Shown here: positions 26,375-39,784 of the stretch, piece by piece
Layout of the letters: each line of letters begins with the position of its first letter
Numbering within the stretch: position 1 is the stretch's first letter
Origin: Candidatus Nealsoniibacteriota bacterium
GTDB taxonomy: Bacteria; Patescibacteriota; Minisyncoccia; Minisyncoccales; JAUWAW01
DNA: 39,949 nucleotides
Assembly (NCBI GenBank): GCA_030601865.1
Contig: JAUWAW010000006.1
Coordinates: 1-39,949, forward strand
Direction of reading: 5' to 3'
Made by a program: the position numbers and the translations under genes
The notes under the pieces: model-generated
Database searches by the model: none
Told to the model about the DNA's origin: nothing
What the model saw: only the letters and a program-made list of their open reading frames with translations

Positions 26375-27232
26375 ATGTTAAATACACTTTGGACAATTTT
26401 AGGAGTAATTGTTTTCATTATCATCATCTCCATCAGGCAGATTAGCCAGTATCAAAAGGGAGTCAAGTTTATGATGGGCAAGTACATCGGTTTGATGCAG
26501 CCGGGCTGGAGATTGGTTTTCCCCGTTTTTCAGTCCTATCGCAAAGTTGATTTAAGGGTTAAGGCAGTTGACGTTCCCAGCCAGGAGGCAATTACCAAGG
26601 ACAATATCTCGGTTTCCGTTAACGCTGTTATCTATTACAAGGTGCGCGAGGCGGAAAAAGCGATTTTAGAGGTAGAGGATTATCGCTATGCCATTTCCCA
26701 GTTAGCCCAAACAACTATGCGCAATGCTGTTGGCCAGGTTGGTTTGGACGAACTCCTGAGCCAGAGAGACAGGGTTTCAGAAAGCATCAGAGTCGTTATA
26801 GACAAAGCCAGCGACCCCTGGGGTATTAAAGTTGACAGCGTGGAGCTAAAAGACATTATCCTGCCCGAGGAAATGAAAAGAACCATTGGCAAGCAGGCAG
26901 AGGCAGAGCGGGAGAAAAGAGCCATCATTATTAAAGCCCAGGGCGAGGTGATTGCTGCTGACAATATGGCCAAAGCGGCCCAGATTTTGGCCGGTTCTCC
27001 GGGCGCTCTTCATTTAAGAACCCTGCAGTCAATTAACGATATAAGTTCTGATAAGTCAAATACCATTATCTTTGCTGTGCCTCTGGAAGTATTGAGGGCC
27101 TTTGATGGGTTGGGCAAAAAGGTTGTTGGCGCAAAACCAAAGCAGGGTTCACCCCAGCAAACCCTGCCCCCAGAAAATCCGTTGCCAGAAAATCCGTTGC
27201 CAGAGGCCCAAACAAAAATTGAACTCCAATAA
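26375..27232 (+). CDS. SPFH/Band 7 (slipin, stomatin-like) membrane protein
   Basis: The product has 285 residues. N-terminal membrane helix (LNTLWTILGVIVFIIIISI), then the SPFH domain (ISQYQKGVKFMMGKYIGLMQPGW, VDLRVKAVDVPSQEAITKDNISVSVNAVIYYKV, RNAVGQVGLDELLSQRDRV, WGIKVDSVELKDIILPEEMKRTI), an Ala/Glu-rich helix (KQAEAEREKRAIIIKAQGEVIAA) and a Pro-rich tail with NPLPE repeats. Slipins form membrane-associated oligomers, usually with an NfeD partner; none is encoded here. Own promoter in the end of uvrB; no SD. Confidence 0.93.
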   Translation: MLNTLWTILGVIVFIIIISIRQISQYQKGVKFMMGKYIGLMQPGWRLVFPVFQSYRKVDLRVKAVDVPSQEAITKDNISVSVNAVIYYKVREAEKAILEVEDYRYAISQLAQTTMRNAVGQVGLDELLSQRDRVSESIRVVIDKASDPWGIKVDSVELKDIILPEEMKRTIGKQAEAEREKRAIIIKAQGEVIAADNMAKAAQILAGSPGALHLRTLQSINDISSDKSNTIIFAVPLEVLRAFDGLGKKVVGAKPKQGSPQQTLPPENPLPENPLPEAQTKIELQ

Positions 27233-27260
27233 CTTATCCCACAAGACCGGCTTTGGCGCA

Positions 27261-27320
27261 ATGTCCGCCTGGCTCACTGTTGATGATATTAATAACATTA
27301 AAAAGGACTTGATAAAATAA
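27261..27320 (+). CDS. Possible 19-residue peptide
   Basis: ATG 27261 (MSAWLTVDDINNIKKDLIK) has no SD but a protein-like composition, and a TTGATA-16-TAAAAT promoter (27309-27336) for the next gene lies at its end. It could be the remnant C-terminus of a lost protein. Confidence 0.2.
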   Translation: MSAWLTVDDINNIKKDLIK

Positions 27321-27407
27321 GTACAGTGTGTAAAATAAACTGTCCCGGTTCAAGGGTTTTGGGTCAAAATTCGGAAGTGATTCGGAGGTCAGAAAGGAGT
27401 GTTTCTT

Positions 27408-27950
27408 ATGAAGGAAGCGGTAGGTGTTAGTGAAGGTTTGTTGCAAGGAGTGCAAAACCGTCTAAGGGAAGCCATAAAGGGTGATAGTGATTTTGACGCT
27501 GATTTCTTTTTTGAAAGGATAGTCAAGCTCTTAGCAGGCAATGCCAACAGTCAGTATCTCTTCGACGTCCTCTCATGGATGTATCTCGGTTTGGAGGTGG
27601 GGCATAAAATTCTGTCCCGGGTTCTTCCTGAAGATAAGTATCTTGAGGTTTGTGGCAGAGGGGTAAACCCAGAGCAAATAGCAGAGATAGTAGGTGGCAT
27701 AAAAACAAGCATGGCGGATTGTCATCCTTACTGCGAGAAAGTAGAGGACTGCCTGCCTGGGCAGGTAGATAGAGCATACCGGGCCATGGGCGAGGAAGAA
27801 AGGGAAGGTTTCCTCCAGTTGTTGGCTGAGATGGCAGCAGAGATAAGCAAATTAAGCATGGCGCTACCTGGAACGCCAATCATCGTAGCGAAAAAAGGAA
27901 GTGCCAATCTCGACCCGGCCGGCGAAGAAGAGGACAGGGACCCTAATTAG
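27408..27950 (+). CDS. Hypothetical soluble protein, 180 residues
   Basis: I do not recognise a family. Start at ATG 27408 with AAAGGAG 9-10 nt upstream; the in-frame GTG at 27399 is part of that SD. Mostly helical and acidic (LLQGVQNRLREAIKG, ADFFFERIVKLLAGN, SQYLFDVLSWMYLGLEVGHKIL, GFLQLLAEMAAEISKL). No signal peptide. A CPxC-like trio (DCHPYCEKVEDC) might bind metal. The DCLPGQVD codons contain a CTGCCTGGGCAG palindrome, perhaps another small insertion. Higher GC and strong SD compared with the neighbouring core genes suggest a separate origin. Confidence 0.6.
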   Translation: MKEAVGVSEGLLQGVQNRLREAIKGDSDFDADFFFERIVKLLAGNANSQYLFDVLSWMYLGLEVGHKILSRVLPEDKYLEVCGRGVNPEQIAEIVGGIKTSMADCHPYCEKVEDCLPGQVDRAYRAMGEEEREGFLQLLAEMAAEISKLSMALPGTPIIVAKKGSANLDPAGEEEDRDPN

Positions 27951-27974
27951 TACCTTAAAATAACATCTAATAGT

Positions 27975-28025
27975 AGGAGATTGGGCAATTCTTGGCCTGA
28001 AGTTGGCAGAATTGCTCAATCTCCT
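27975..28025. terminator. 17-nt inverted repeat downstream of the 27.4 kb gene
   Basis: AGGAGATTGGGCAATTC (27975-27991) pairs with 28009-28025 (one mismatch) around a 17-nt loop, 25 nt after the stop. The T-run is weak, so terminator function is tentative. Confidence 0.5.
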
Positions 28026-28095
28026 AAACCTCAAGTTTGAGACATTAAGTTTCCCCAAAAGCTCCCCTGAGCTTTTTTGTTTTCCCAAGCAAGTA

Positions 28096-28124
28096 TTGAA
28101 AAACCCCCAAAAAAGAGGCATAAT
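28096..28124 (+). promoter_or_regulatory. Repeated promoter motif, copy 1
   Basis: TTGAAA (28096-28101), a 17-nt spacer AACCCCCAAAAAAGAGG and CATAAT (28119-28124). The whole 29 nt is identical to 30137-30165. It lies 72 nt before the HTH/Doc genes, with a second TTGACT promoter (28141) between. Confidence 0.6.
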
Positions 28125-28158
28125 AAACCGAAACCCTCCCTTGACTATTCTTTTAACC

Positions 28159-28189
28159 TATGTTAACTTGTTCTGTAGTGGTTAACATA
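28159..28189 (+). promoter_or_regulatory. Operator-like inverted repeat of the HTH/Doc operon
   Basis: TATGTTAAC (28159-28167) and GTTAACATA (28181-28189) are perfect inverted half-sites overlapping the -10 region of a TTGACT (28141-28146) promoter. This is the expected layout for autorepression by the antitoxin. Confidence 0.65.
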
Positions 28190-28195
28190 AAATTT

Positions 28196-28453
28196 ATGAA
28201 AAACAAAAGATTTCTTTCAACAACTGAATTGGCAAAAATGTTGGGCATTAGCCGCATAGCCGTTTTTAAACAAATTAAAAAGGGTAAAATGAAGGCCAAA
28301 AAAGTTGGCAGGAATTACGTTATTGACAAAAAGGATTTAGGAGGCGTATTTAAAACAAAATTGAGCGCAAAAGAAAAGGCAGAAATTAAAAAAGCGGTTA
28401 AAAAGGTCGTTAAAGAATATGGTGTAACATTAAAATTGCTTGGTCGAACATGA
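28196..28453 (+). CDS. HTH (excisionase/MerR-like) antitoxin of a Doc-type pair
   Basis: The product has 85 residues from ATG 28196; the upstream ATG at 28160 lies inside the operator. N-terminal helix-turn-helix of excisionase type (FLSTTELAKMLGISRIAVFKQIKKGKMKAKKVGRNYVIDKKDL), which binds DNA, then a Lys/Glu helix (SAKEKAEIKKAVKKVVKEYG) likely to bind the toxin. The stop overlaps the toxin start (ATGA). Partner and operator make a type II toxin-antitoxin role likely. Confidence 0.75.
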   Translation: MKNKRFLSTTELAKMLGISRIAVFKQIKKGKMKAKKVGRNYVIDKKDLGGVFKTKLSAKEKAEIKKAVKKVVKEYGVTLKLLGRT

Positions 28454-28869
28454 TAAAAAAGTTGTCCGTTTTGGACGTTAAGCAGATTGCCTTCTGGTTA
28501 GCCAGAGAAGTGATGACCTATGATGAGCCAATTCCTGATTTTACCACTCGTTTTCCTAATATTTTAGAAAGTTGTCTCTTAGTGCCTTTTCAAACATTTA
28601 CCAAAAAGCCGCTTTACAAAGGACTATTGTCAAAAGCGGCAATTCTTTTTTATTTAATGATTAAAAACCATCCTTTTCAAAACGGCAACAAAAGAATTGC
28701 CATGACTACTTTATTTGTTTTTCTCTACCTAAACAAAAAATGGCTGAAAATTGACAACAAAAAACTTTACAATTTTGTTGTTTGGGTTGCTGAAAGCCCA
28801 AGAGAACTAAAAACAGAAACCGTCCAAGCCATTGAAACCTTCTTAAAAACTTATCTGGTAGGCCTGTAA
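28450..28869 (+). CDS. Doc/Fic-fold toxin
   Basis: The product has 139 residues. The Fic/Doc motif is NHPFQNGNKRIA (about residues 77-88), close to Doc HxFxxxNKR, with the catalytic His, Phe, Asn, Lys and Arg all present. Upstream, SKAAILFYLMIKNHPF and downstream TLFVFLYLNKKWL fit the Doc helical core. Doc phosphorylates EF-Tu; Fic relatives AMPylate other targets. The GNKR ending suits a Doc kinase. Translationally coupled to the HTH gene. Confidence 0.85.
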   Translation: MIKKLSVLDVKQIAFWLAREVMTYDEPIPDFTTRFPNILESCLLVPFQTFTKKPLYKGLLSKAAILFYLMIKNHPFQNGNKRIAMTTLFVFLYLNKKWLKIDNKKLYNFVVWVAESPRELKTETVQAIETFLKTYLVGL

Positions 28870-28884
28870 TAAACCCAAAAACCT

Positions 28885-28944
28885 ATGCCCAACCAATTTT
28901 ATAAACCCAAAAAAGAAGTTGAAAATAAGCTAAAAATCTGCTAA
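28885..28944 (+). pseudogene. Short relic of a MPxQFYKPKKEV-type small protein
   Basis: ATG 28885 opens MPNQFYKPKKEVENKLKIC and stops. Similar openings occur at 30791 (MPKPKKEVKKRF) and 30940 (MPKQFYKLK), suggesting decayed copies of one small gene family. Its end overlaps the promoter of the next gene. Confidence 0.3.
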
Positions 28945-28947
28945 TAT
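28919..28947 (+). promoter_or_regulatory. Promoter of the SDH_sah gene
   Basis: TTGAAA (28919-28924), a 17-nt spacer, TAATAT (28942-28947), with the ATG 13 nt further on; nearly leaderless and without SD. Confidence 0.55.
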
Positions 28948-28959
28948 ATAGTAAAAAAT

Positions 28960-29982
28960 ATGCCTAAAAAAGAATTAATAGAACAAATTGAGAAAGCGCG
29001 CAATTCAAAGGTTATTACTTACATAACCAGTGATAGAAAGGGTCCGGTTAATGCCCGGATTGCTATGGATATAATTCCAATTTTCAGCAAGCAATTACGG
29101 CAAATCGGAAAAGTGCCGCAAATTGACTTATTTTTATACTCAACCGGCGGCGATACAATGGTGCCCTGGCGTTTGGTTTCAATGATTCGCGAATACTGCG
29201 ATAAGTTTTCTGTTTTAGTGCCATATAAAGCCCATTCAGCAGCCACTATGATTGCTTTGGGCGCTGATGAAATTGTAATGAGTGATTTGTCCGAGCTTTC
29301 ACCAATTGACCCTTCAACAGCCAATATTTTCAATCCACAAGACCCAAAAAATCCTCAAAACAGGATTCCTATTTCAACCGAAGAAGTAATGTCTTATTTT
29401 GACTTAGCTAAAAAAGTGGGCATCAAAGATGAAAAAGAATTGGCAGAAATTTTCAGGAAGTTTATAGATGCCAAACCTCAAATTCATCCTCTGGCGCTCG
29501 GCAATGTCAACCGAACACACAACCTTATTCGTATTTTGGCAACCCGGCTTCTGAAATCCCACAAACAGCCAATGCCAGAAGAAGAAATTAAAAAAATTGT
29601 TGACTATTTAACTGAAAAACTTTACTCCCACCAGTATTTTATCGGTAGAAAAGAAGCAAAAAATGATTTAGGGATTAAGACAATTACTTATGCTGATGAA
29701 AATTTGGCTCAAATAATGACCCAACTTTTTGAAGAATATCAAAAAGAAATGGAACTTGGCAAACTATGGAATCCAGAAAACGAGCTTGGTGAGAACCAGG
29801 TACTTAACAAAAAGGATTATAAAATTGCCTCAATTGAGTCAACCCAGAAAGAAAACCTTTTTGAACTCGTCATTGAATACAAAAAAGGTCAAATTCAAAT
29901 CACCCAACAAACCCCCCAAGGCCCAATCCAAGTGCCGCAAGATAAGGTAATGTGGCGAGTAATTGCACAGGGGTGGAAATAA
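28960..29982 (+). CDS. SDH_sah (serine dehydrogenase proteinase family) ClpP/crotonase-fold protein
   Basis: The product has 340 residues. It matches the SDH_sah family, membrane-less relatives of SppA/ClpP serine proteases: ITSDRKGPVNARIAMDIIPIFSKQL, LFLYSTGGDTMVPWRLVSMIREY, then VPYKAHSAATMIALGADEIVM (nucleophile Ser expected in HSAAT) and LSELSPIDPS. A C-terminal half (about 165-340) with conserved PQIHPLALGNVNRTHNLIRIL and a helical tail is usual for the family. Substrate unknown; a role in protein quality control is inferred. Own promoter; followed by a REP-like element and a terminator. Confidence 0.9.
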   Translation: MPKKELIEQIEKARNSKVITYITSDRKGPVNARIAMDIIPIFSKQLRQIGKVPQIDLFLYSTGGDTMVPWRLVSMIREYCDKFSVLVPYKAHSAATMIALGADEIVMSDLSELSPIDPSTANIFNPQDPKNPQNRIPISTEEVMSYFDLAKKVGIKDEKELAEIFRKFIDAKPQIHPLALGNVNRTHNLIRILATRLLKSHKQPMPEEEIKKIVDYLTEKLYSHQYFIGRKEAKNDLGIKTITYADENLAQIMTQLFEEYQKEMELGKLWNPENELGENQVLNKKDYKIASIESTQKENLFELVIEYKKGQIQITQQTPQGPIQVPQDKVMWRVIAQGWK

Positions 29983-30025
29983 TCAAGAAAATTTGATGAC
30001 AGAAGAACACAGCAAAGCTTTAGAT

Positions 30026-30090
30026 GAAAAATGGGGACGTTTCTGATTGTAGCTTAGATCTTGAGAAAAATGAGAAACGTCCCGATTTTC
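30026..30090. repeat. REP-like element X with long inverted repeat
   Basis: GGGACGTTTCT (30034-30044) and AGAAACGTCCC (30073-30083) pair perfectly, flanked by GAAAAATG and CGATTTTC. The left side is the same type as the elements at 16644 and 34432, resembling repeats associated with REP-family (Y1) transposases. Confidence 0.6.
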
Positions 30091-30095
30091 CCCTT

Positions 30096-30122
30096 AAAGG
30101 CCCTTCTTTTGTGGGCCTTTTT
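30096..30122 (+). terminator. Rho-independent terminator
   Basis: AAAGGCCC (30096-30103) pairs with GGGCCTTT (30113-30120) and is followed by further T. It ends transcription from the SDH_sah gene. Confidence 0.85.
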
Positions 30123-30136
30123 ACTTGCTCCGTCTC

Positions 30137-30165
30137 TTGAAAAACCCCCAAAAAAGAGGCATAAT
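30137..30165 (+). promoter_or_regulatory. Repeated promoter motif, copy 2
   Basis: TTGAAA, 17-nt spacer, CATAAT, identical in all 29 positions to copy 1 at 28096. It lies 74 nt before the broken DUF3800 gene. Confidence 0.6.
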
Positions 30166-30238
30166 ACACTAAACCATCATCACCAAAACCTTTGCCTTCA
30201 GCTTCAAAGAAAACAAATTGATATAGACCTATAAAACT

Positions 30239-30606
30239 ATGCGAAAACTCTATACTTATGTTGACGAAACAGGACAAGATACAAAAGGTAATATGACACA
30301 CGTGCTTATATTGATCTCACAATCCTTACCACAGCAAAGGCAATTTTAGAAAAAGCAAAATCACCGTATCAGGCGACTGTGTTTGTAGATGGTCTCAAGC
30401 GGTCAGAGTGATACCGATTTGCTGCTGGCTTACGTAAATTAAGGGTAAAAGTTCGGAAAGTACGTGGCATCAGAGAGCAATCCGATGAATTTGCGCGCCT
30501 AGCTAATACTATAGCTGGTCTTGTTCGGGATGCTTTAGAAGGAGATGAGATAATGAAAGAATTTTACGAAAAAGCCAAGCGAAGCAAGATTATTAAAGAA
30601 GTTTAG
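30239..30606 (+). pseudogene. DUF3800 gene remnant (internal deletion, frameshift and in-frame TGA)
   Basis: DUF3800 proteins have an RNase H-like fold. The start (MRKLYTYVDETGQDTKGN) is the conserved first strand with its acidic residue. After about 20 codons the middle of the protein is missing and the frame changes near 30298. The C-terminal part then reads TILTTAKAILEKAKSPYQATVFVDGLKRSE-[TGA 30419-30421]-YRFAAGLRKLRVKVRKVRGIREQSDEFARLANTIAGLVRDAL and ends at TAG 30606. The TGA probably replaces a TGG (Trp). As UGA is a stop elsewhere in the window, this is a decayed gene rather than recoding. Confidence 0.75.
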
Positions 30607-30611
30607 GCAAA

Positions 30612-30754
30612 GAAAAACCCCCGTTTAAGGGGGAACAGCCTAGCCATTACGGCGACCAACCCAAGAGTTTTTGCTCTCCGCAGACGTGACTGCGAAAGGG
30701 AAGTATTCGGCTGCAACTTTATTCTTATATTACCAAATTACCATAACTTGTCAA
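30612..30754 (-). ncRNA. Candidate small structured RNA with own promoter and terminator
   Basis: Minus strand: TTGACA (30754-30749), 17-19 nt, AATATA/TATAAG (30731-30724), then a GC-rich stretch of about 100 nt in an AT-rich region. It ends in a strong terminator (CCCCC-TTAAAC-GGGGG, 30633-30618, then TTTTTC). Within it: GCAGCC pairs with GGCTGT (enclosing stem), CGCAG-TCACGT-CTGCG, AGAG-CAAAAA-CTCT, and GCC-GTAAT-GGC. No open frame. It does not look like 5S, tmRNA, SRP or RNase P RNA. It starts beyond the 3' end of the DUF3800 remnant; DUF3800 genes are known to have associated structured RNA motifs, but a match is not shown. Confidence 0.5.
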
Positions 30755-30790
30755 GCCCAATTATCCCCAAGTTCAAGAAATTTGAGAAAT

Positions 30791-30938
30791 ATGCCCAAAC
30801 CCAAGAAAGAAGTCAAAAAACGATTCCAAAAAACCTAAAGACCCCAAACCCTACGCCCACGCCGAATACTGGGAATGCCCCACCTGCTACTGGCATCCCA
30901 AAAACACAAAAATTCCCCCTCTAAAACTAAAAAAATAA
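30791..30938 (+). pseudogene. Small CxxC protein gene with a frame break
   Basis: ATG 30791 reads MPKPKKEVKKRFQKT and stops. In the +1 frame the text continues from the A-run near 30826 as KKPKDPKPYAHAEYWECPTCYWHPKNTK...LKLKK to TAA 30936-30938. Joined, this is a basic protein of about 49 residues with one CPTC pair. One base at the A-run decides whether it is a pseudogene, a sequencing error or a frameshift product. Confidence 0.4.
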
Positions 30939-30973
30939 AATGCCAAAGCAATTTTATAAACTAAAATAGGAAT

Positions 30974-31492
30974 ATTAAGCATCCTGAAATTATTGATTGG
31001 GTAACCGACGAATGGAAAAAGCGCACCGGCAAGGTTTTTAGGGACCCAGATAGAGGTATTCGAAAATTACATCAAGATGGATACCTGATAAAAGTTAAAA
31101 AAGGGGTTTATAAATACGATCCTAATCTTGTTAGTAAAAGAACATTAGAGGATTTTAGCCCAAAAACTAAAGAAGCAATTTTCAAAAGAGATGGGTATAA
31201 ATGCGTTATATGTGGCCGTGGTAAGGCTGAGGGAGTGGAACTTCATGCCGACCATATCAAGTCAAAAGATTTAGGTGGAAAAGCAACACTGGACAATGGT
31301 CAAACACTTTGCTCTCGTTGTAATTTTTTAAAGAAGAAGTTAGGGCAAACCGAAATTGGCAAAAAGATGTTTGTAAGATTATACAATGTGGCCAAGAAAG
31401 AGGATAATAAAGAATTATTACAATTTTGTTCTGAAGTTTTAAAAGTTTATAAAAAACATAACATCAACGGACATATAAGGTGGAAAAAATAG
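30974..31492 (+). CDS. HNH endonuclease-like protein (5' end uncertain)
   Basis: The product has about 172 residues. N-terminal domain KHPEIIDWVTDEWKKRTGKVFRDPDRGIRKLHQDGYLIKVKKGVYKYDP (winged-helix-like), then an HNH fold: TKEAIFKRDGYKCVICGRG, ELHADHIKSKDLGG (catalytic DH), DNGQTLCSRCNFLKKK, so both zinc-binding CxxC pairs and the His are present. No ATG opens this frame before the stop at 30962-30964. An ATG at 30940 (MPKQFYKLK) is in another frame and would join with a one-base shift near 30966; otherwise ATT 30974 would be the start. A GTG start at 31235 would cut the HNH domain and is rejected. The domain composition matches putative restriction-type HNH proteins; the target is unknown. 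Confidence 0.75.
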   Translation: MKHPEIIDWVTDEWKKRTGKVFRDPDRGIRKLHQDGYLIKVKKGVYKYDPNLVSKRTLEDFSPKTKEAIFKRDGYKCVICGRGKAEGVELHADHIKSKDLGGKATLDNGQTLCSRCNFLKKKLGQTEIGKKMFVRLYNVAKKEDNKELLQFCSEVLKVYKKHNINGHIRWKK

Positions 31493-31505
31493 GATAAAAA
31501 GCCAA

Positions 31506-31538
31506 ACCAAAAAGGCGCTTTGAGGGCGCCTTTTTGGT
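31506..31538. terminator. Bidirectional terminator between HNH and LexA-methyltransferase genes
   Basis: ACCAAAAAGGCGC (31506-31518) pairs with GCGCCTTTTTGGT (31526-31538); T/A-runs serve both strands of the convergent genes. Confidence 0.85.
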
Positions 31539-31555
31539 TGGTAATAACCACTAAT

Positions 31556-32914
31556 TCACCGCTTTGTCTTTTTATTTAGTCTATCCTTGGCAACCTTACA
31601 ATACTGAGGAGATATGTCAATATGTATAAAGTTTCTGCCTGTTTTTGCTGTAACTGCAGCCACTGTTCCGGTTCCTCCAAACATATCTAAAATATTGTTG
31701 CCCTTATAACTGTAAAATTTAATCAACCTGTAAATCAATTTTTCTGGAAAAGGGGCGGGGTGTCCCTTTCTTCTTGTTTCGGGCCAAATTTGCCAAAAGC
31801 CGTCAGAGAAATTCATAAATTCGTCTTTGGTAATATCAGCCATTTTACTGGTACCATCAAGACGATTTTTATCTTTTGAGAAAATCAAAACGTATTCCCA
31901 CGACGGCACAATATGGGGATTAGCAGGGCTTTTAAAACTTCCCCAGGCAGTTCTTTTGAGCATTGTTTGTTTATACCAAATAATTTCGGTTCTAAATTTC
32001 ATTCCAAGTTGCCTAAACTGGTTAGCAAAGTCATGATGAAGGGGTACAAAATCTCTTATTCCTGTAGGAGCAATATTGAGGGCAAATCTTCCACCGGGCA
32101 CTAACACTCTTTTAGTTTCTGCCCAAACCTTAAAAAGCCAATCTAAATAATCACGATAGCTCATTTTGTCGTTATGATTATCATAATTTTTACCTACATT
32201 ATAGGGTGGTGAAGTAATAGCTAAATGCATTGTATTATCTGGGATCTTTTTCATCTCATCCAAAACGTCGCCACAGATAATTTTGTTAAATTCAAATTTC
32301 TGTTTTTGTTCTATCTCTTCAATGTTTCTAAAAATACTGATTACCTTGCCTTGAATTGTGAGATTTTTAACAAAAATGGGTTTTAGGGCTGAGTTGGCTG
32401 GTTGTAGTCTATAGCGATTTTTTTCTCTATAGATTTTTTTAAGCGTTACTTCGTTTTTATTAACAAGGGCTACAGCCGTTTCTCCATTTTCAACTGTAGG
32501 TTGTTTACGGATAACCACTACAGCGCCATCAAAGATTCCTTCGTCAACCATACTGTCGCCCTGTACTCTTAGAGCAAAATGTTCGCCCGATCTTGATAAC
32601 AAACTTTTTTGCACCCTAATTTTTTCTGGAATTTCTATTGCTTCAATTGGTGAACCAGCAGCAATCATGCCGAGTAGGGGAATACTTACCAGCTCGGATT
32701 TTTTCTTTTTGTTATTCAATTCAATCGACCGCGGCTGGTTTTTTACTCTTTTTATATAACGCTTTGACACCAAATTATCTAAATGCTCATGAATCGTTGC
32801 CAGAGAGGATAAGCCGAAATGTTTTTTCATCTCTTTCAAACTCGGACCATAACCCTTTTTGTTTATGTATCTTCTTATATAATCAAATATTTCTTTTTGT
32901 TTTTTGGTAAGCAT
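31556..32914 (-). CDS. LexA repressor fused to a DNA methyltransferase
   Basis: The product has 452 residues from ATG 32914, the canonical LexA start (MLTKKQKEIFDYIRRYI); ATGs at 32938 and 32968 lie at or before the predicted transcript start. Residues 1-66: LexA winged helix. Residues 78-195: S24 peptidase domain with cleavage bond Ala86-Gly87 (IAAGSPIEA), Ser121 (GDSM) and Lys159 (EVTLKK), all intact. After a short linker (EEIEQKQKFEF), residues 210-450 form an N4/N6 DNA methylase: ICGDVLDEMKKIPDN, catalytic TSPPYN (234-239), GHPAPFPEKLIYRLIKFYS, and the AdoMet motif DMFGGTGT near the C-terminus (beta-class order). No cognate nuclease adjoins it. RecA-driven self-cleavage would separate the methylase from the DNA-binding domain. 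Confidence 0.93.
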   Translation of the reverse strand: MLTKKQKEIFDYIRRYINKKGYGPSLKEMKKHFGLSSLATIHEHLDNLVSKRYIKRVKNQPRSIELNNKKKKSELVSIPLLGMIAAGSPIEAIEIPEKIRVQKSLLSRSGEHFALRVQGDSMVDEGIFDGAVVVIRKQPTVENGETAVALVNKNEVTLKKIYREKNRYRLQPANSALKPIFVKNLTIQGKVISIFRNIEEIEQKQKFEFNKIICGDVLDEMKKIPDNTMHLAITSPPYNVGKNYDNHNDKMSYRDYLDWLFKVWAETKRVLVPGGRFALNIAPTGIRDFVPLHHDFANQFRQLGMKFRTEIIWYKQTMLKRTAWGSFKSPANPHIVPSWEYVLIFSKDKNRLDGTSKMADITKDEFMNFSDGFWQIWPETRRKGHPAPFPEKLIYRLIKFYSYKGNNILDMFGGTGTVAAVTAKTGRNFIHIDISPQYCKVAKDRLNKKTKR

Positions 32915-32923
32915 ATTAATTTT

Positions 32924-32988
32924 GTTATCCACAGCCATTTTTATTATAGCATATCCCACCCGAAACAAAACCGAAGTTATCCACAGCC
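32924..32988 (-). promoter_or_regulatory. LexA-methyltransferase promoter flanked by two TTATCCACA boxes
   Basis: Extended -10 TGC-TATAAT on the minus strand (TATAAT 32948-32943), about 30 nt before the ATG at 32914. The 13-mer GTTATCCACAGCC occurs twice in direct orientation (32924-32936, 32976-32988), 52 bp apart, one copy on each side of the -10. The core TTATCCACA equals the consensus DnaA box. No clear LexA-type dyad was seen, so these could instead be the operators of this LexA. Confidence 0.7.
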
Positions 32989-33023
32989 CGTAATTTGACT
33001 TTTCTGATAATTTCAGTCAAAAT

Positions 33024-33045
33024 AAAATAGAGTTGACACCATTTT
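33024..33045 (-). repeat. REP-like element X, inverted copy
   Basis: AAAATAGAGTTGACACCATTTT is the reverse complement of the element found at 36000-36023 and 38690-38715. The contained TTGACA could also act as a -35 for the next gene. Confidence 0.55.
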
Positions 33046-33097
33046 CACACCATTTTCATTCTTACTTAGGGTTGGGTGTTATGGGGCATATTGGAAT

Positions 33098-33658
33098 ATG
33101 AGATGTTGTCGTTTGAGGAAATTTGTCGAAGTCTATAAAAAATGGAGTCCTACTAGCAGGATATTCTTTTGGCTCGCGATACTCGGTATTATAATCAGTA
33201 TTCTTTTTGGATTGATTGGTTCAGGTGACAATATTCAAGGAGATGTAATAGAGATAGACCAGCTTAATGTGTTTGACTTAAATAATTTACAGAATGATAG
33301 TCACAGTCTTTTTTATCATGATTCAACCAGTAGGTACTATACTGCTGAGGAAAAAGATTATTTGGGATTAACGATTGGCTATTCAGCCTTGCTTATAAGT
33401 TTAACTAAATACGAAGATGCGATTAAAATTTTGGAGAAAGCAATTGACAAAAATTTTAGCTTTTATGGAATTTGGATTAACATTGGCAATGCCTATGTAG
33501 GATTAGGTTCTTATGATGAAGCATTAAATTCTTATGACCAAGCCATTATTAGAAATGAAAACTCAAAACTTGCGTGGAGAAATAAATGTTTTTTGTTAGG
33601 GTCATTGAAGAGAAGTGAAGAATACAATGAATGTTTGAAGAAAGTATCAGGGTTATAA
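33098..33658 (+). CDS. Membrane-anchored TPR protein
   Basis: The product has 186 residues. A basic N-terminus and one membrane helix (IFFWLAILGIIISILFGLIG), then two or three tetratricopeptide repeats (YSALLISLTKYEDAIKILEKAIDKN; WINIGNAYVGLGSYDEALNSYDQAIIRNENS; AWRNKCFLLGSLKRSEEYNECLKKV). TPR units bind protein partners; the partner is unknown. No SD. First gene of the accessory run. Confidence 0.75.
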   Translation: MRCCRLRKFVEVYKKWSPTSRIFFWLAILGIIISILFGLIGSGDNIQGDVIEIDQLNVFDLNNLQNDSHSLFYHDSTSRYYTAEEKDYLGLTIGYSALLISLTKYEDAIKILEKAIDKNFSFYGIWINIGNAYVGLGSYDEALNSYDQAIIRNENSKLAWRNKCFLLGSLKRSEEYNECLKKVSGL

Positions 33659-33685
33659 TTTCACTTAATTAACAGCTAGATCTCT

Positions 33686-33709
33686 GAAAATGCTGTCAAT
33701 TCTATTTTT
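33686..33709 (+). repeat. REP-like element X
   Basis: GAAAATGCTGTCAATTCTAT plus TTTT is a variant of the 36000-36023 element, 27 nt after a stop codon and 22 nt before a leader Y. Confidence 0.45.
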
Positions 33710-33730
33710 GGTAAATTAAACAAGCCAAAC

Positions 33731-33766
33731 AAAAAGTCAAAAAATTCATTGAGGAATAAAATTATG
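33731..33766 (+). promoter_or_regulatory. Portable leader Y, copy 1
   Basis: AAAAAGTCAAAAAATT-CATTGAGGAATAAAATT-ATG. The GAGGA serves as SD with an 8-nt gap to the ATG (33764). Nearly identical leaders stand before 36062, 36665 and 38256, with a degenerate copy at 34474-34508. It fixes the starts of these genes at the ATG rather than at the TTG inside the leader. Confidence 0.8.
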
Positions 33767-34423
33767 GCTAGAACGAGTTCTAATTTAGGGTCAGAATTCA
33801 AAGAGCAAATTAAAAAAATTGGAAAAGCAAGATGGTATCAAAAACCGTGGGGCATATTACTTTTAGGAATTATAGCTAGCTTTATTGCTATGATATTATT
33901 TGTTTTTACACCTCAAAAAGAGCAAATCATTGTATCAAAACCAAGTTTAGATTTTAATAATGTTGAATTTATTTATTATGATTTAAATAATCATCCAATC
34001 CAGAATAGAGAAAATACAAAATACATTATGAATTTAAATGAAGTAGCGAGTGTTGATTTTATTGGCGAAATAGAAAATAATGGAGAAGTTAATTTATTAA
34101 CTTCTTTGAAAAATGTTTCTCTTCAGTCATCTGATGGGTATATTATATATGATGAACCACCCTTTAGGGTTACTGACAACACTCCTCTTGCAAAAAAAGA
34201 AAAATATTGGATTAGAATGAAGGGCATAGATGCCAAGTGGTTTTTGGACAAATTAAAAAATAACGAAAAATTTTATTTAATTTTTAAACCCGAAATAGAA
34301 TATTTTACTGAAGATAGACCTGAAGAAAAATTTTATCTGAACATAATAATAAAATGCGGTAATGATTTTGGAGGTAATCAACTACCATTATTTACACCAG
34401 TATGTGTGCCAGAGAAGATATGA
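33764..34423 (+). CDS. Membrane protein of unknown function
   Basis: The product has 219 residues from ATG 33764, set by the leader Y SD. A soluble N-terminus (about 25 residues), one helix (WGILLLGIIASFIAMILFVF) and a C-terminal beta-rich outer domain (PSLDFNNVEFIYYDL, EVASVDFIGEIENNGEVNLL, YWIRMKGIDAKWFLDKL, FYLNIIIKCGNDFGG). No family recognised; the outer part may be an Ig-like fold. Confidence 0.6.
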   Translation: MARTSSNLGSEFKEQIKKIGKARWYQKPWGILLLGIIASFIAMILFVFTPQKEQIIVSKPSLDFNNVEFIYYDLNNHPIQNRENTKYIMNLNEVASVDFIGEIENNGEVNLLTSLKNVSLQSSDGYIIYDEPPFRVTDNTPLAKKEKYWIRMKGIDAKWFLDKLKNNEKFYLIFKPEIEYFTEDRPEEKFYLNIIIKCGNDFGGNQLPLFTPVCVPEKI

Positions 34424-34431
34424 AAGCAAGA

Positions 34432-34508
34432 GAAAACAGGGACGGTTCTGAATTTTTGCCCTGAAGTTTTTAAACAAAAGTCGTGGAATTAATTGAGGAA
34501 TAAAATTT
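34432..34508 (+). repeat. REP-like element X plus degenerate leader Y
   Basis: GAAAACAGGGACGGTTCTGA (34432-34451) begins the X variant that reads GGGACGGTTCT, similar to the 30034 element. A degenerate Y (GGAATTAATTGAGGAATAAA plus ATT) runs to 34508 but is followed by TTACAG instead of ATG; the next gene starts 32 nt later without using it. Confidence 0.55.
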
Positions 34509-34539
34509 ACAGCAAATAATTATTGTAAAGATAACAAAT

Positions 34540-34974
34540 ATGATCAATGCAAGTAATACAGAGAAAGAAAGAATTTTCCTGTATGAAGTATGGATGTGGC
34601 GTGAAACTTGTAGAAGGCTTATCCAGGGTTCCAAGCCGTCATTTGAACAAAATTTGTTAATAGAATCATTAGCTGTCCATACTAGAATATTGGTTGATTT
34701 CTTTTATATGGATCAAAAGACACACCCCGATGATTTAATAGCTCAAGATCTATTTCCGAAGGACATTGATTGGAAAAAAGTAAGACCGCTCAAAACTAAA
34801 ATGCTTGAGGAAGCAAAGAAGAAAGCAAATAAACAGCTGGCACATTTGAGCCTTCAACGTATAGAATTAGAAAAAACTAGAAAGAAGGGTTGGTCAGTGT
34901 CTGATATTTTTAAAGATATGGAAAATGTAATCAAAACGTTTATGGAACAAAGGAAGGGATCAAAAACTAGTTGA
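34540..34974 (+). CDS. Hypothetical helical protein, possibly HEPN-like
   Basis: The product has 144 residues, all helical: RIFLYEVWMWRETCRRLI, FEQNLLIESLAVHTRILVDFFYM, DDLIAQDLFPKDIDWKKV, ANKQLAHLSLQRIEL. The pattern of an N-terminal helix with ESLAVHTR-LVDFFY, a DD-acidic turn and NKQLAHL is seen in many small uncharacterised bacterial proteins that resemble HEPN folds. No strict R-x4-6-H motif. Function not assigned. Confidence 0.5.
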   Translation: MINASNTEKERIFLYEVWMWRETCRRLIQGSKPSFEQNLLIESLAVHTRILVDFFYMDQKTHPDDLIAQDLFPKDIDWKKVRPLKTKMLEEAKKKANKQLAHLSLQRIELEKTRKKGWSVSDIFKDMENVIKTFMEQRKGSKTS

Positions 34975-35053
34975 GAAACGAATTGAGAAACAAAAATTCC
35001 AAGAATTATTTGAATCCGTTCTCCATAAATCAATGAAAGGAAAAATGTAGAAT

Positions 35054-35989
35054 ATGTTAAGAATTAATAAACAAGAATTAAATAAAATAATCGATAAGAC
35101 ATTTTTTGCTAATTGTGGCGATTCACATGAACGTCAATGGTGGTCTTATTTTCAAGAGAGATTTCCTAACTGTGAAATGTTTTGGCGTTACTTTATAGTG
35201 CCACACACAAACAGAATATTACCAGAAGGAAAAATAGAAGAAGAAATAATAAGGCCGAGGAAAAGGGTAGCAAAAGAAATTCGTATAATCTCAAATGTTC
35301 ATTATTCAATGTTTATAAACATAATTTATTCCCTTGATCACTTGAAAAATTTTCAGCTTTCATCTTTTGAAGATTTTTATATCCATTTAGCTTCAGCCGG
35401 TGATTTGGCAGAGGAATTTTTACTCAAAACTTATTTTCTGATTCTTGAGTGCACAAATCAAAAAAGTGAGATTCTGCAAGAGTTAAAAAAAGAAGATTTT
35501 TTAAAGCTATGTGAGAAGTGGTATAACAATAATTATTCAGAAGTTTATGAAAATTATCTTAAAAAAGGAAAACCAGCACCGATAAAACTTCCTAGTAGAA
35601 AAAATGTATTAGATGAATATTTTCAAGACTTGGAATATTGGGGGCAATACAAAAAATTTGTTCAAAAGATTAGAGAATATAGAAACATTATTGTACACGA
35701 TGTACAAATTGGTAAAATACTTTCTGAGAAAAAAGACGTTGTTTTAGTTCCCAAAAAAGACAAAATTCAAGATTATAAAGACTGGCCAAAAGTTTTTGCT
35801 GCCGGAAAAGACACCAAAAAATTACAGAAAGATTTCATTGAAATGAGAGAGCAAATGATTCTTGATATTGGTAGAATGCAGATTTCCTTAAATAATATTT
35901 GGAACAAGCCGATTGAGGATCTCAAGATTTTATTCAAAAAAAAGAACGAGGTCTTGTTGAGAAAATTTGATATTGAAATAGTAGAATAG
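35054..35989 (+). CDS. Hypothetical protein with HEPN-like RxxxxH motif
   Basis: The product has 311 residues. Mostly helical and highly charged; no signal peptide. Residues around 220-230 read IREYRNIIVHDVQ, where RNIIVH fits the R-x4-H signature of HEPN ribonucleases, preceded by a helix (WGQYKKFVQKI). An N-terminal Cys/His/Trp-rich start (FFANCGDSHERQWWSYFQERFPNCEMFWRYFIVPH) is unusual. HEPN proteins are common in toxin and defence systems, so a stress or defence role is possible. The family is unrecognised, and the motif alone is weak evidence. Confidence 0.5.
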   Translation: MLRINKQELNKIIDKTFFANCGDSHERQWWSYFQERFPNCEMFWRYFIVPHTNRILPEGKIEEEIIRPRKRVAKEIRIISNVHYSMFINIIYSLDHLKNFQLSSFEDFYIHLASAGDLAEEFLLKTYFLILECTNQKSEILQELKKEDFLKLCEKWYNNNYSEVYENYLKKGKPAPIKLPSRKNVLDEYFQDLEYWGQYKKFVQKIREYRNIIVHDVQIGKILSEKKDVVLVPKKDKIQDYKDWPKVFAAGKDTKKLQKDFIEMREQMILDIGRMQISLNNIWNKPIEDLKILFKKKNEVLLRKFDIEIVE

Positions 35990-35999
35990 AAGAATAGTC

Positions 36000-36064
36000 A
36001 AAATAGGGGTCAACTCTATTTTCAATTCAAAAAGTCAAAAAATTAATTGAGGAATAAAATTATG
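36000..36064 (+). repeat. Element X directly followed by leader Y (reference arrangement)
   Basis: AAAATAGGGGTCAACTCTAT plus TTTC (36000-36023) is followed after 5 nt by leader Y (36029-36064) ending at ATG 36062. This is the clearest joint copy and defines the two repeats. Confidence 0.75.
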
Positions 36065-36601
36065 GGAGATGAAATTGAATTAGAATTGGCTTGGTTGATT
36101 AAGTATCTGCCAGATGATCTGAAGAAGTGTCGTTCGATTAAGATTGTTCAGGCATATATTGATCACAAAGACCCAAAAATCAAGGATATCCGCATCAGAG
36201 AAAAGGGAGGCGTTTTTACCTATACAGTTAAGCGTTTCGCCAAAAACTCGCAAGAAACAGGTTATTGCAGAGAGGAAACAAAGCAAATCTCGCAAGGTGA
36301 GTTTTTGCAATTAATGGAAAATAGCAATCAGAAAATTAGCAAAATGCGCTACTTCTATCTTTTGCCACAGGGACTGACTGCTGAAGTTGATGTTTACAAA
36401 GATAACTTAAAAGGATTGGATGTGGTTGAAGTAGAATTTCCGAGCGTTAAGGTCTGCGAAAAATTTGAAATCCCTGCTTGGTTCGGCAAAGAAGTTACTG
36501 ATTCAAAAGGTATTTACCCGCCATTCATTGCTAACCTATCTATTGATGAAGTACATAAGATAAATCGTTGTTATGAACAGAAGCCTCATGATTTTAGCTG
36601 A
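36062..36601 (+). CDS. CYTH-domain (triphosphate tunnel) protein 1
   Basis: The product has 179 residues from ATG 36062. CYTH signatures: N-terminal acidic strand EIELELAWL, then IKIVQAYI, DIRIREKGGVFTYTVKRF, EETKQIS, KMRYFYLL, GLTAEVDVYKDNLKGLDVVEVEF, and PAWFGKEVTDSKGIYPPFIA. The family binds triphosphates and divalent metal in a beta tunnel; members are triphosphatases or class IV adenylate cyclases. The D.Y...L..L..VEVEF block resembles the CYTH type seen in polyphosphatase/YgiF relatives. Preceded by X and leader Y. Confidence 0.75.
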   Translation: MGDEIELELAWLIKYLPDDLKKCRSIKIVQAYIDHKDPKIKDIRIREKGGVFTYTVKRFAKNSQETGYCREETKQISQGEFLQLMENSNQKISKMRYFYLLPQGLTAEVDVYKDNLKGLDVVEVEFPSVKVCEKFEIPAWFGKEVTDSKGIYPPFIANLSIDEVHKINRCYEQKPHDFS

Positions 36602-36631
36602 TTTTGATGTTTGGCCTATTTAATATAGAAT

Positions 36632-36667
36632 AAAAACTCAAAAAATTAATTGAGAAATAAAATTATG
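36632..36667 (+). promoter_or_regulatory. Portable leader Y, copy 3
   Basis: AAAAACTCAAAAAATTAATT then GAGAAATAAAATT-ATG; the SD is weakened to GAGAA. It leads to ATG 36665. Confidence 0.75.
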
Positions 36668-37159
36668 AAAATATATTTAGCGGGGAAAGTACCAAAGGGG
36701 AAGGATGAGGCAGAGAACTTTGATGACTGGAGAAAAAGATATCAGCAAGTATTACAAAAGTTTTTTGAGGCTGAATTTATTGATCCCTATGATCGTCAAT
36801 TGGACGAGAGTGATTTTCTGAGCGTAGTAGGGATTGATTGCAAACATATCAAAGAAAGTGATTTAGTCATTGTTAACTCGGAACAGAAATTAGGTGCAGG
36901 GACAGCCCAAGAGCTGGTTATTGCAAAATATTTTAAGAAGCCTGTTGTTGCGGTGCTTCCGAAGAACACTCATCATAGACGTTCAAACTTGGTTTTTGGC
37001 AAAAAATTAGTTGAGGATTGGATACATCCTTTCATTTTTACCTTTTCTGATTTTATCTTGGAAGAAATTGGCGAGATTGAGAAAATAAAAGATAAAATCT
37101 TTCGTTCAAAAATAAAAGACATTTCTATCATTGATGAAGTAATTAAACGGGTTAGTTGA
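36665..37159 (+). CDS. Nucleoside 2-deoxyribosyltransferase-like protein
   Basis: The product has 164 residues. Fold hallmarks: first strand IYLAGKVP, DDWRKRYQQVL, FIDPYDRQ, a central DCKHIKESDLVIVNSEQKLGAGTAQELVIAKYF with the expected catalytic Glu in AQE, and KPVVAVLPKN. The family cleaves or exchanges N-glycosidic bonds of nucleosides or nucleotides; house-cleaning members remove modified nucleotides. The neighbouring CYTH and Nudix genes support a nucleotide-related role. Confidence 0.75.
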   Translation: MKIYLAGKVPKGKDEAENFDDWRKRYQQVLQKFFEAEFIDPYDRQLDESDFLSVVGIDCKHIKESDLVIVNSEQKLGAGTAQELVIAKYFKKPVVAVLPKNTHHRRSNLVFGKKLVEDWIHPFIFTFSDFILEEIGEIEKIKDKIFRSKIKDISIIDEVIKRVS

Positions 37160-37165
37160 ATGTAG

Positions 37166-37190
37166 AGAAAATAGCGTCAACTTTATTTTT
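37166..37190 (+). repeat. REP-like element X
   Basis: GAGAAAATAGCGTCAACTTT plus ATTTT, 7 nt after a stop codon; a variant of the 36000 element. Confidence 0.5.
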
Positions 37191-37219
37191 TTGAGAAAAT
37201 CTTCTTTTTGAAAAAATTC

Positions 37220-37266
37220 TTGACAAGAGTTTTTAGTGTGTTAAACTTTAATACAACATCTATAAT
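37220..37266 (+). promoter_or_regulatory. Promoter region of the 62-residue gene
   Basis: TTGACA (37220-37225) with TAAACT (37242-37247) at 16-nt spacing, and a downstream TATAAT (37261-37266). The gene has its own strong SD (GGAAAGGTGG, about 37288-37297). Confidence 0.55.
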
Positions 37267-37305
37267 GGTGTCGTTAAGGTAGCATTAGGAAAGGTGGTGA
37301 GATAC

Positions 37306-37494
37306 ATGAAAAGTAGGCAGACCAGTGCTGATAAGGCATATGAGAAGGGTGTGAAGGCTGGTCAGTCGGCTGGCTTCGTTGAGAGGATGATACAAGGTAA
37401 CAAAGATGCCATTCCTATGCCGTCGTCCAAAGATGAGAAGACCTACGACAAAGGATTTGTTTACGGTGTCCAACATCGTGGCAAGAAGTCGTAG
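37306..37494 (+). CDS. Hypothetical small protein, 62 residues
   Basis: Start at ATG 37306; the GTG at 37294 is part of the SD. Basic, repeat-like sequence: KAYEKGVKAGQSAGFVERMIQ and KTYDKGFVYGVQHRGKK share a xY-x-KG-x-x-x-G pattern, as if two copies of a short helical unit. No family recognised. Own promoter and terminator, no leader Y, so it is independent of its neighbours. Confidence 0.55.
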   Translation: MKSRQTSADKAYEKGVKAGQSAGFVERMIQGNKDAIPMPSSKDEKTYDKGFVYGVQHRGKKS

Positions 37495-37560
37495 ATAAAC
37501 TTCAGTACGTATTTATCAAGGAGTGAAAAACGAAAAACCTCATCAAAAAATGCTACCAAA

Positions 37561-37602
37561 ACCCAAGATACAGAGTTTTTGTGTCCTGGGCTTATTTTTT
37601 TA
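37561..37602 (+). terminator. Terminator-like hairpin related to the 39.7 kb one
   Basis: ACCCAAGATACAG pairs imperfectly with TGTCCTGGGCTT and is followed by ATTTTTTT. The segment TGCTACCAAAACCCAAGA matches 39698-39715, so the two are copies of one element. Confidence 0.6.
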
Positions 37603-37646
37603 TGTTTATACTGGGACAAAGAGAAAAAGATGATATAATGGTAAAT

Positions 37647-38240
37647 ATGGAAACAGAATACGAGGCAACATTTTTAGATATTAAAAAAGATACTGTCAGG
37701 CAAAAGCTGAAAAGCATTGGCGCTAAATTGCTCAAACCCGAATATTTGCAAAAGCGGGTTGTTTTTAATTTGCCTAAGGGTTTGGAAATGCAGCATACAT
37801 GGTTAAGGGTCAGAGATGAAGGTGATAAAATCACGATGAGTTTGAAAATTACGGATGCGGGCAAAATTGAAAACCAAAAAGAAATTTGTTTGGAAGTGGA
37901 CGATTTTGAAAACGCAGTAGAGCTGCTGGAATTAGCTGGATGCCAAAAAAAGGCATATCAGGAGAATAAAAGAGAAGAATGGCAATGCGGCGAGTGTGAG
38001 ATAACTATTGATGAATGGCCGTTTTTAGAGCCGTTTGTAGAGGTTGAAGCAACAAGTGAACAGGCGGTCAAGGCAATGACTCAAAAACTGGGCTTTGATT
38101 ACTCCAAGGCGTTGTTTTGTTCTGTCACTGCCATTTACGCTAAAAAATACGGATTATCAGATGATATTATCAATAACCAGACACCAAAGATTACTTTCGA
38201 TATGGAAAATCCTTTTTTGGATAAAAACTCAAAAAATTAA
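37647..38240 (+). CDS. CYTH-domain protein 2 (class IV adenylate cyclase-like)
   Basis: The product has 197 residues from ATG 37647. A TATAAT at 37634-37639 implies a near-leaderless transcript; ATG 37638 is possible, and upstream starts fall in the terminator. CYTH features: METEYEATFL (E-x-E variant, lacking the usual Lys), RVVFNLP, HTWLRVRDEGDKITMSLK, KEICLEVDDFENAVELLELAG, KREEWQCGECEITIDEWPFLEPFVEVEA. It is closer to CyaB/class IV cyclase-like proteins than the 36062 gene is. The last codons (KNSKN) and stop lie within leader Y of the next gene. Confidence 0.75.
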   Translation: METEYEATFLDIKKDTVRQKLKSIGAKLLKPEYLQKRVVFNLPKGLEMQHTWLRVRDEGDKITMSLKITDAGKIENQKEICLEVDDFENAVELLELAGCQKKAYQENKREEWQCGECEITIDEWPFLEPFVEVEATSEQAVKAMTQKLGFDYSKALFCSVTAIYAKKYGLSDDIINNQTPKITFDMENPFLDKNSKN

Positions 38241-38258
38241 TTGAGGGATGAAATTATG
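38223..38258 (+). promoter_or_regulatory. Portable leader Y, copy 4
   Basis: AAAAACTCAAAAAATTAATT then GAGGGATGAAATT-ATG; SD GAGGG. It starts inside the coding end of the CYTH 2 gene, which uses the TAA within Y as its stop codon. Confidence 0.75.
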
Positions 38259-38684
38259 GAAAATAAAAAATATCCACGAATTGGGATAGGAGTAATGATA
38301 CAAAATAAGAAAGGAGAAGTGCTGTTAGGTTTAAGGCAAGGTGCCCACGCAGCAGGGGAATGGAGTTGTCCCGGCGGTCATTTGGAGTTTGGAGAGACAA
38401 TTTTTGAAACAGCTAAAAGAGAGGTAAAAGAAGAGACCGATTTAGATGTTGAAGAATTCAAGCTTATTTCAGTAAGTGACGATTTACGTTATATCTCAAC
38501 AGACGGTGTACATTACGTAACAATTGGTGTAAAAGCAGTTTACAAAGGTGGTAATCCCAAACTAATGGAGCCAGACAAATGTGAGAGATGGAGATGGTTT
38601 AGTTTAAACAACCTACCAGAGAAAATACTTGAAGGGACAGAAATGATTATAAAGAATTATAAGAAAGGTAGGGTTTATCATTAA
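38256..38684 (+). CDS. Nudix hydrolase
   Basis: The product has 142 residues. Nudix box GGHLEFGETIFETAKREVKEETDLD (about residues 38-62) fits G-x5-E-x7-R-E-x2-E-E with the metal-binding glutamates present. Preceding VMIQNKKGEVLLGLRQGAHAAGEWSCPGG and following YVTIGVKAVYKGG are typical of MutT/NUDT15-like enzymes, which hydrolyse nucleoside diphosphates linked to another group, often damaged or non-canonical NTPs. The exact substrate is unknown. Confidence 0.93.
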   Translation: MENKKYPRIGIGVMIQNKKGEVLLGLRQGAHAAGEWSCPGGHLEFGETIFETAKREVKEETDLDVEEFKLISVSDDLRYISTDGVHYVTIGVKAVYKGGNPKLMEPDKCERWRWFSLNNLPEKILEGTEMIIKNYKKGRVYH

Positions 38685-38689
38685 GTCGT

Positions 38690-38715
38690 GAAAAAATGGG
38701 GTCAACTCTATTCTT
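38690..38715 (+). repeat. REP-like element X
   Basis: GAAAAAATGGGGTCAACTCT plus ATTCTT lies 5 nt after the Nudix stop codon, again directly downstream of a gene. Confidence 0.6.
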
Positions 38716-38805
38716 GATAAAAAGCCGAAAAGAAATCCAATCAAGAAAATTAGAATTTGAAGGATAGGATTTTAGCCCCCTTTTTTTGGATTTTTGTTTT
38801 AGGGC

Positions 38806-39438: not shown

Positions 39439-39484
39439 TCTGTCCTTTACTCAGCCTCACATAATCTTTAGGGGTTAATCATTA

Positions 39485-39510
39485 AGCCACGGACTCGCGC
39501 CGTGGCTATT
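39485..39510 (+). terminator. Terminator of the 39.06 kb gene
   Basis: AGCCACGG-ACTCGCG-CCGTGGCT followed by ATTCTATT. Confidence 0.7.
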
Positions 39511-39743: not shown

Positions 39744-39749
39744 GAAACC

Positions 39750-39778: not shown

Positions 39779-39784
39779 GGAGCT

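Follow-up and report, generated by a model that had tools for sequence, protein, structure and literature searches.

Fusion gene and its restriction-modification setting

We analysed a 39,949-nucleotide stretch of DNA from a Candidatus Nealsoniibacteriota bacterium (hereafter the window), in which the minus strand is open throughout positions 31556-32914 and encodes a protein of 452 amino acids from the ATG at 32914. The gene, its two halves and the features on its 3' side are as follows.

31556..32914, minus strand: LexA::DNA-methyltransferase fusion gene (LexA, residues 1-198; linker, about 199-208; methyltransferase, about 209-452)
32319..32914, minus strand: LexA half, with a winged helix (2-62) and an S24 self-cleavage domain (79-192), from Pfam
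31556..32290, minus strand: beta-class amino-methyltransferase half (PF01555) with TSPPYN and DMFGGTGT, from Pfam and the match to 2zie
31504..31541, no strand: hairpin flanked on either side by T-runs, in the gap separating the convergent genes, read from the sequence as a likely two-way terminator
30965..31492, plus strand: convergent frame of a winged-helix and HNH restriction endonuclease, from homology to intact neighbours

Pfam assigned LexA_DNA_bind (residues 2-62, 1.1e-17), Peptidase_S24 (79-192, 1.9e-29) and N6_N4_Mtase (230-443, 4.4e-45) to the protein, each well over the cut-off, and the TIGR00498 lexA profile matched residues 2-198 with 195 bits against a cut-off of 111, as for a full-length LexA. 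Likewise, the LexA half matched LexA 3k2z and the methylase half matched 2zie end to end, with a linker of ~10 residues between them. A sequence-only reading of this DNA had proposed a complete LexA and a complete N4/N6 methyltransferase in one frame, and both halves indeed proved to be full by these Pfam, TIGR00498 and PDB matches. Its residue assignments were also recovered, including the scissile bond Ala86-Gly87, the catalytic dyad Ser121/Lys159 and the intact methylase motifs TSPPYN (234-239) and DMFGGTGT (410-417). The TSPPY catalytic motif is commoner among N4-cytosine enzymes, and from this motif the window methylase may be of the N4-cytosine type. An AlphaFold2 model (8 sequences) reached a pLDDT of 57 and was set aside.

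The same protein was found in seven other assemblies (L007-L012 and L120), with 68-72% identity end to end. Since all seven are independent and share the identical junction, the frameshift or assembly join near 32300 that the sequence-only reading had asked about is ruled out. The search for the same fusion in other genomes thus returned seven close relatives and, in addition, LexA joined in-frame to unrelated methyltransferase classes; a scan of genome contigs revealed another amino-methyltransferase (L021), a D12/Dam-like enzyme (L023), a large N4/N6 type (L025, L026 and L028) and C5 enzymes (L027 and L029). A LexA profile run over 380 Patescibacteria genomes gave about a dozen LexA frames of 486-633 amino acids, and all of the long frames fetched from this sample were DNA-methyltransferase fusions (N4/N6, D12 or C5). 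With a profile of the fusion-type LexA, the 380 genomes afforded 21 fusions in 20 genomes, and the fusion LexAs outscored nearly all of the standalone LexAs. In a tree, the fusion-type LexAs stand apart from the sampled standalone LexAs, with one standalone row inside the group, and some genomes of the 380 contain a standalone LexA in addition to the fusion. No relative was found in a scan of IMG/VR, and none covering 80% of the query was found among 72,556 plasmids and 50,697 phages, so that these scans lend no support to a phage or plasmid origin of the fusion.

The cleavage residues A86, G87, S121 and K159 are invariant in all 40 modules of the fusion-type group, 33 of which are fused, and likewise in the 16 standalone LexAs compared. 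The seven unfused members are L006, L126, L127, L129 and the very divergent L003, all in restriction-modification loci, together with L022 and L024, at whose loci no methylase gene was seen. This conservation bears on the view that the LexA half is a constitutive repressor or dimeriser only, with the bulky methylase blocking cleavage. A plain DNA-binding arm does suffice for the self-repression of M.SsoII (PMC6100179), but idle catalysis would not explain a bond and a Ser-Lys dyad kept in 40 of 40 modules over many methylase classes, and the methylase is joined at the far C-terminus; we thus regard a purely constitutive role as improbable.

The neighbourhood of the window fusion is a type II restriction-modification locus, a setting absent from the sequence-only reading. 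The convergent endonuclease frame is 60-71% identical, over 168-174 residues, to the intact HNH endonucleases that adjoin the fusion in L007, L008, L009, L011 and L012. It has no ATG, GTG or TTG before 31235, follows an in-frame stop at 30962-30964 and lacks ~22 N-terminal residues, suggesting that the gene is probably damaged at its 5' end; therefore, the methylase encoded here may by now be nearly an orphan. A decayed gene remnant with a DUF3800 look (by eye), carrying stops and a frame break, lies near it at 30241-30606 (plus strand). Elsewhere, the fusion is adjoined by endonucleases of the BsaWI (L010, L120 and L079), MvaI/BcnI (L026, L028 and L117), MamI (L071 and L124), BglII (L072), EcoRV (L073), NgoFVII (L121) and ScaI (L123) kinds, while those of the unfused relatives are of the TdeIII, HindVP and AlwI kinds. 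The BsaWI-like endonuclease of L120 had no match in the PDB, although Pfam assigns it to RE_BsaWI. From the BsaWI-like partners, a target motif with CCGG in it may be guessed for the methylase.

The methylase half also occurs in DPANN archaea (L013-L020), with 73-79% identity in most, next to the same two kinds of endonuclease, HNH or BsaWI, but without the LexA half. Because these archaeal relatives have the same partners and no LexA, we read LexA as a regulatory arm added to an otherwise ordinary restriction-modification methylase. The methylase was likely transferred between Patescibacteria and DPANN archaea, with the HNH and BsaWI endonucleases being exchangeable.

Promoter and candidate operator

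The region upstream of the fusion contains the following features.

32960..32975, minus strand: candidate LexA operator TTCGGTTTTGTTTCGG, a direct repeat with an 11-bp period, 46-61 bp 5' of the ATG
32943..32948, minus strand: -10 element TATAAT (extended TGCTATAAT), adjoining the operator, read from the sequence
32977..32985, plus strand: consensus DnaA box TTATCCACA, 1 bp upstream of the operator
32925..32933, plus strand: second DnaA box, in the short leader, from a sequence scan
33098..33658, plus strand: divergent gene with one likely membrane segment (by eye) and TPR, sharing the 184-bp intergenic region

From the -10 element, transcription would start near the in-frame ATG at 32938 farther upstream, and thus the ATG at 32914 is the likelier start codon. 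The position and form of the operator recur in the relatives. With the pattern TTCKR-N6-TTCKR, defined after viewing the same sequences, 22 of 28 loci were found to have a perfect copy no more than 75 bp from the start, as compared with 0 in 5,180 bp farther upstream and 0 for other spacers of 0-14, both controls being internal, and a mean of 0.07 (maximum 3) in simple base shuffles. Among twelve loci added later (L024 and eleven more), eight carried a perfect box. In most of the fusion promoters the repeat is placed at the -35/-10 region, while about a quarter of the group is without a perfect box (L011, L012, L028, L075, L079, L120, L123, L127, L129 and the divergent L003), and some of these loci have near matches. 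Standalone lexA genes of Patescibacteria also have this form of box in some cases, several of which adjoin a uvrB-like gene. The alpha-proteobacterial LexA operator is also a direct repeat with an 11-bp period. A first operator candidate, the palindrome TTGACT...AGTCAA near 33000-33030, was rejected, as it is not seen in the relatives, most of which have the TTCKR repeat. Rfam gave no match in 27000-39949. One further exact copy of TTCGG-N6-TTCGG, and no more, is present in the window, at 27370-27385 (plus strand); it lies ~14-30 bp 5' of an ORF beginning at 27399/27408 and could be a second target or chance.

We then compared the half-sites with the recognition helix, in which the residue x of an H-x-H motif, which we take to align with Glu45 of E. 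coli LexA, is variable. Where this residue is Gln or Glu, the half-site is TTCGG (14 loci of the group, with the window counted among them, and five standalone LexAs), whereas His, Phe or Tyr goes with TTCKA in 16, with no exceptions among the loci that have a perfect box. When the tree was computed with the helix columns removed, each trait showed five changes; three of the paired changes are independent on supported branches and all are in step, although a sign test on three pairs (p = 0.25) cannot reach significance. Because there are only three independent changes, the agreement is not phylogenetically decisive, and we consider binding of the fused helices to their own promoters to have good but not decisive support.

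No LexA box was found at the promoter of the endonuclease gene. In 374 kb of loci, there are 21 other TTCKR boxes, and because these lie mostly away from gene starts, nothing here points to LexA control of the endonuclease genes.

The consensus DnaA box TTATCCACA was found in the 150 bp upstream of the gene for 24 of the 40 group members and for none of the 16 standalone lexA genes, against a background expectation of 0.5, and in the group the boxes are mostly 10-16 bp 5' of the operator. The window's genome has dnaA and 26 copies of the 9-mer, as compared with six for the reversed control, and four of these copies are upstream of its three LexA-like genes, each of which has one. Since the DnaA box adjoins the operator, this arrangement suggests that the fusion promoter may also be tied to replication.

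LexA-like genes and divergent neighbours

Besides the fusion, the window's genome (590,907 bp, 96% complete) has two unfused LexA-like genes, making three in all, and both unfused ones immediately precede a gene for a DNA methyltransferase. At the first (C2), the locus comprises an amino-methyltransferase, a convergent pair made up of a small HTH gene and a gene read as the endonuclease, and a divergent ThsB-like TIR gene; at the second (C14), the methylase is Eco57I-like and the protein after it weakly resembles Tsp45I. A fourth S24 match resembles signal peptidase by sequence. The sequence-only reading had named a separate intact lexA elsewhere, with the fusion copy lacking cleavage in assays, as a result against it; two more LexA-like genes do exist, but both are methyltransferase-linked, and no standalone LexA free of such a link was found in this genome. 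Complete or near-complete genomes of the window's order and class, such as G043, G323, G349, G089 and G118, gave no LexA match, and LexA may therefore be dispensable in this class.

Given that the fusion scores as a full LexA, that the genome gave no standalone LexA without a linked methylase and that several relatives of the same order and class are without any LexA, the LexA half could be the general SOS repressor of the organism, with the methylase as a passenger. However, exact boxes of the window's type number three genome-wide, no more than in the reversed-pattern control, and other genomes hold a standalone LexA plus the fusion. The genome has recA, but its start lies directly behind another gene and has no LexA box, and thus a multi-gene SOS regulon including recA was not found in the box scan and at the recA promoter. 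We therefore dropped a LexA regulon in this genome, and consider the role of general repressor very unlikely.

The same box count bears on two further proposals of the sequence-only reading, a repressor that methylates its own operators and a methylase aimed at LexA boxes. A single chain with two DNA-binding halves might in principle bring methylation to such sites, or mark its own operator. Against this, boxes are almost lacking across the genome, the methylase belongs to a restriction-modification system with its own partner, the archaeal relatives that are 73-79% identical have no LexA, and in M.SsoII operator binding and methylation are mutually exclusive (PMC6100179). Targeted methylation in either form thus deserves hardly any credence.

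A divergent gene starts within 200 bp in 27 of the 40 loci, which places the operator in an intergenic region that serves both directions, and recognised defence genes were found in the divergent operon of nine. These include a CBASS cyclase, with or without effector or E2 (L073, L126, L127 and L129), ThsB-like TIR genes (L006, from the window's own genome, L081 and L021), AbiTii (L072) and PD-Lambda-3_B (L075). A damage-gated backup immunity could thus be envisaged, in which the fusion controls the divergent promoter, with the divergent gene as its main target, and its cleavage, once restriction or phage attack has generated single-stranded DNA, releases second-line effectors (CBASS, TIR/Thoeris-like, AbiTii or HEPN). 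This is in keeping with the box in the common intergenic region, where one is found, and with CapK+CapS, which is reported to be sandwiched between restriction-modification and CBASS operons (PMC13373217). On the other hand, recognised defence genes are confined to these 9 of the 40 loci, a divergent gene within the same distance is common at standalone lexA genes too (about 9-10 of 16, many resembling uvrB), the box is near the methylase start, and PADLOC gave no defence match for the window's divergent gene at 33098-33658. Such a role is compatible with the explanation that we prefer below, but as the main function it is conceivable rather than likely.

Other genes in these regions also deserve mention. 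The divergent neighbours at 2839-3579 in L071 and 677-1672 in L079 resemble proteasome/HslV-type Ntn hydrolases by eye; PADLOC gave no match for the former, and a possible reading is that they are unrecognised defence genes. In the window, a 46-nt leader (AAAAAGTCAAAAAATTAATTGAGGAATAAAATTATG...) occurs in five copies on the plus strand, at 33731, 34475, 36029, 36632 and 38223, which are 0.6-1.6 kb apart, with four ending at an ORF start; the arrangement resembles a cassette-like array in which small genes have a common leader. An HTH_17 protein followed by a Fic/DOC protein, at 28160-28869 (plus strand), is likely a toxin-antitoxin-like pair.

Proposed control of methylation by DNA damage

The sequence-only reading had inferred a link between DNA damage and methylation, and this part of it stands as the leading inference because the fusion is intact, has many relatives, keeps invariant cleavage residues and has a case for an operator in its own promoter, whereas its companion ideas on the methylation of operators or LexA boxes found no support. 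We consider it probable, on the basis of these sequence comparisons, that the protein serves as modification enzyme in a type II restriction-modification system and bears a LexA arm, acting in a loop of self-repression, damage-stimulated cleavage and re-protection. The LexA arm would bind the direct-repeat operator at its own -35/-10 region and repress its own synthesis, a step that has good support from the sequence. When the chromosome is cut or replication stalls, through the partner endonuclease acting on under-methylated DNA, a phage or other damage, RecA filaments would form and stimulate cleavage at Ala86-Gly87, as the intact and invariant residues suggest. Loss of the DNA-binding arm would then free the promoter, while the C-terminal product, consisting of the LexA dimer domain and the whole methyltransferase, would presumably still methylate. 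The methylase would thus rise and the chromosome would be re-protected, in a homeostatic loop that ties its supply to the damage inflicted by restriction. The DnaA box may tie the same promoter to replication, the source of new unmethylated sites, and where CBASS, TIR or Abi genes lie at the common promoter region, the same event may release them.

Parts of this scheme have precedents. In M.SsoII, an N-terminal repressor arm shuts the enzyme's own promoter (PMC6100179, PMC12707154); the arm is a C-protein-like segment of 55 residues without a sensor, on a C5 enzyme (PMC6100179). The fusion resembles the M.SsoII/Ecl18kI type in having an N-terminal DNA-binding arm on a modification enzyme, a candidate operator in its own promoter (32960-32975, by sequence) and an endonuclease gene beside it. 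In contrast, its arm comprises an entire LexA, self-cleaving domain included, and is found on many methylase classes, the window methylase belongs to PF01555, and no operator was found at the endonuclease promoter of the fusion loci. As compared with LexA itself (TIGR00498), the winged helix, S24 domain, Ala-Gly bond and Ser-Lys dyad are shared, and the operator has the same form as that of standalone Patescibacteria lexA genes, but unlike the SOS LexA, the fusion carries an enzyme, sits in a restriction-modification locus and seems to control no gene but its own and perhaps a divergent one.

Repressors of immune operons that sense damage are also known, namely CapH+CapP, CapW/BrxR and CapK+CapS (PMC13373217). 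The fusion-type proteins would likewise be repressors released by damage next to immune genes, in some loci between restriction-modification and CBASS genes. However, CapH, CapP, CapW, CapK and CapS belong to different families, since Pfam finds only the LexA, S24 and methylase domains in the fusion; no methylase fusion is reported for the CapH, CapW and CapK types in PMC13373217, and they sense damage directly or via a partner protease or kinase, whereas the LexA of the fusion would use RecA. The DPANN BsaWI/HNH type II systems share the methylase half and the endonuclease kinds with the fusion loci and differ in the LexA half.

We found no published description of a LexA-methyltransferase fusion in a search that left most subscription journals outside, so that its absence there is not proof, and a 2025 review of restriction-modification (PMC12707154) does not mention LexA. 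Thus, self-regulating methyltransferases with a repressor arm and damage-sensing immune repressors are known, while a self-cleaving SOS repressor as the arm of a methylase, recurring within one phylum across numerous families of methylases and endonucleases, is apparently new.

Restriction-modification endangers its owner whenever methylation lags, and Patescibacteria probably use DNA damage to set the amount of the protective methylase. If this is true, a methylase that serves as a DNA-damage sensor would be, in the literature searched, the first direct feedback from self-cutting to re-methylation within one protein. More speculatively, and with less than even confidence, the LexA-methyltransferases may form a class in Patescibacteria that reads damage through LexA cleavage, replication through the DnaA box and the level of the methylase itself, and thereby sets modification against restriction, with some members switching on CBASS, TIR or Abi genes when restriction is overrun. 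LexA would thus gain a second role in the local control of defence loci, and this in tiny genomes, some of which have no standalone LexA.
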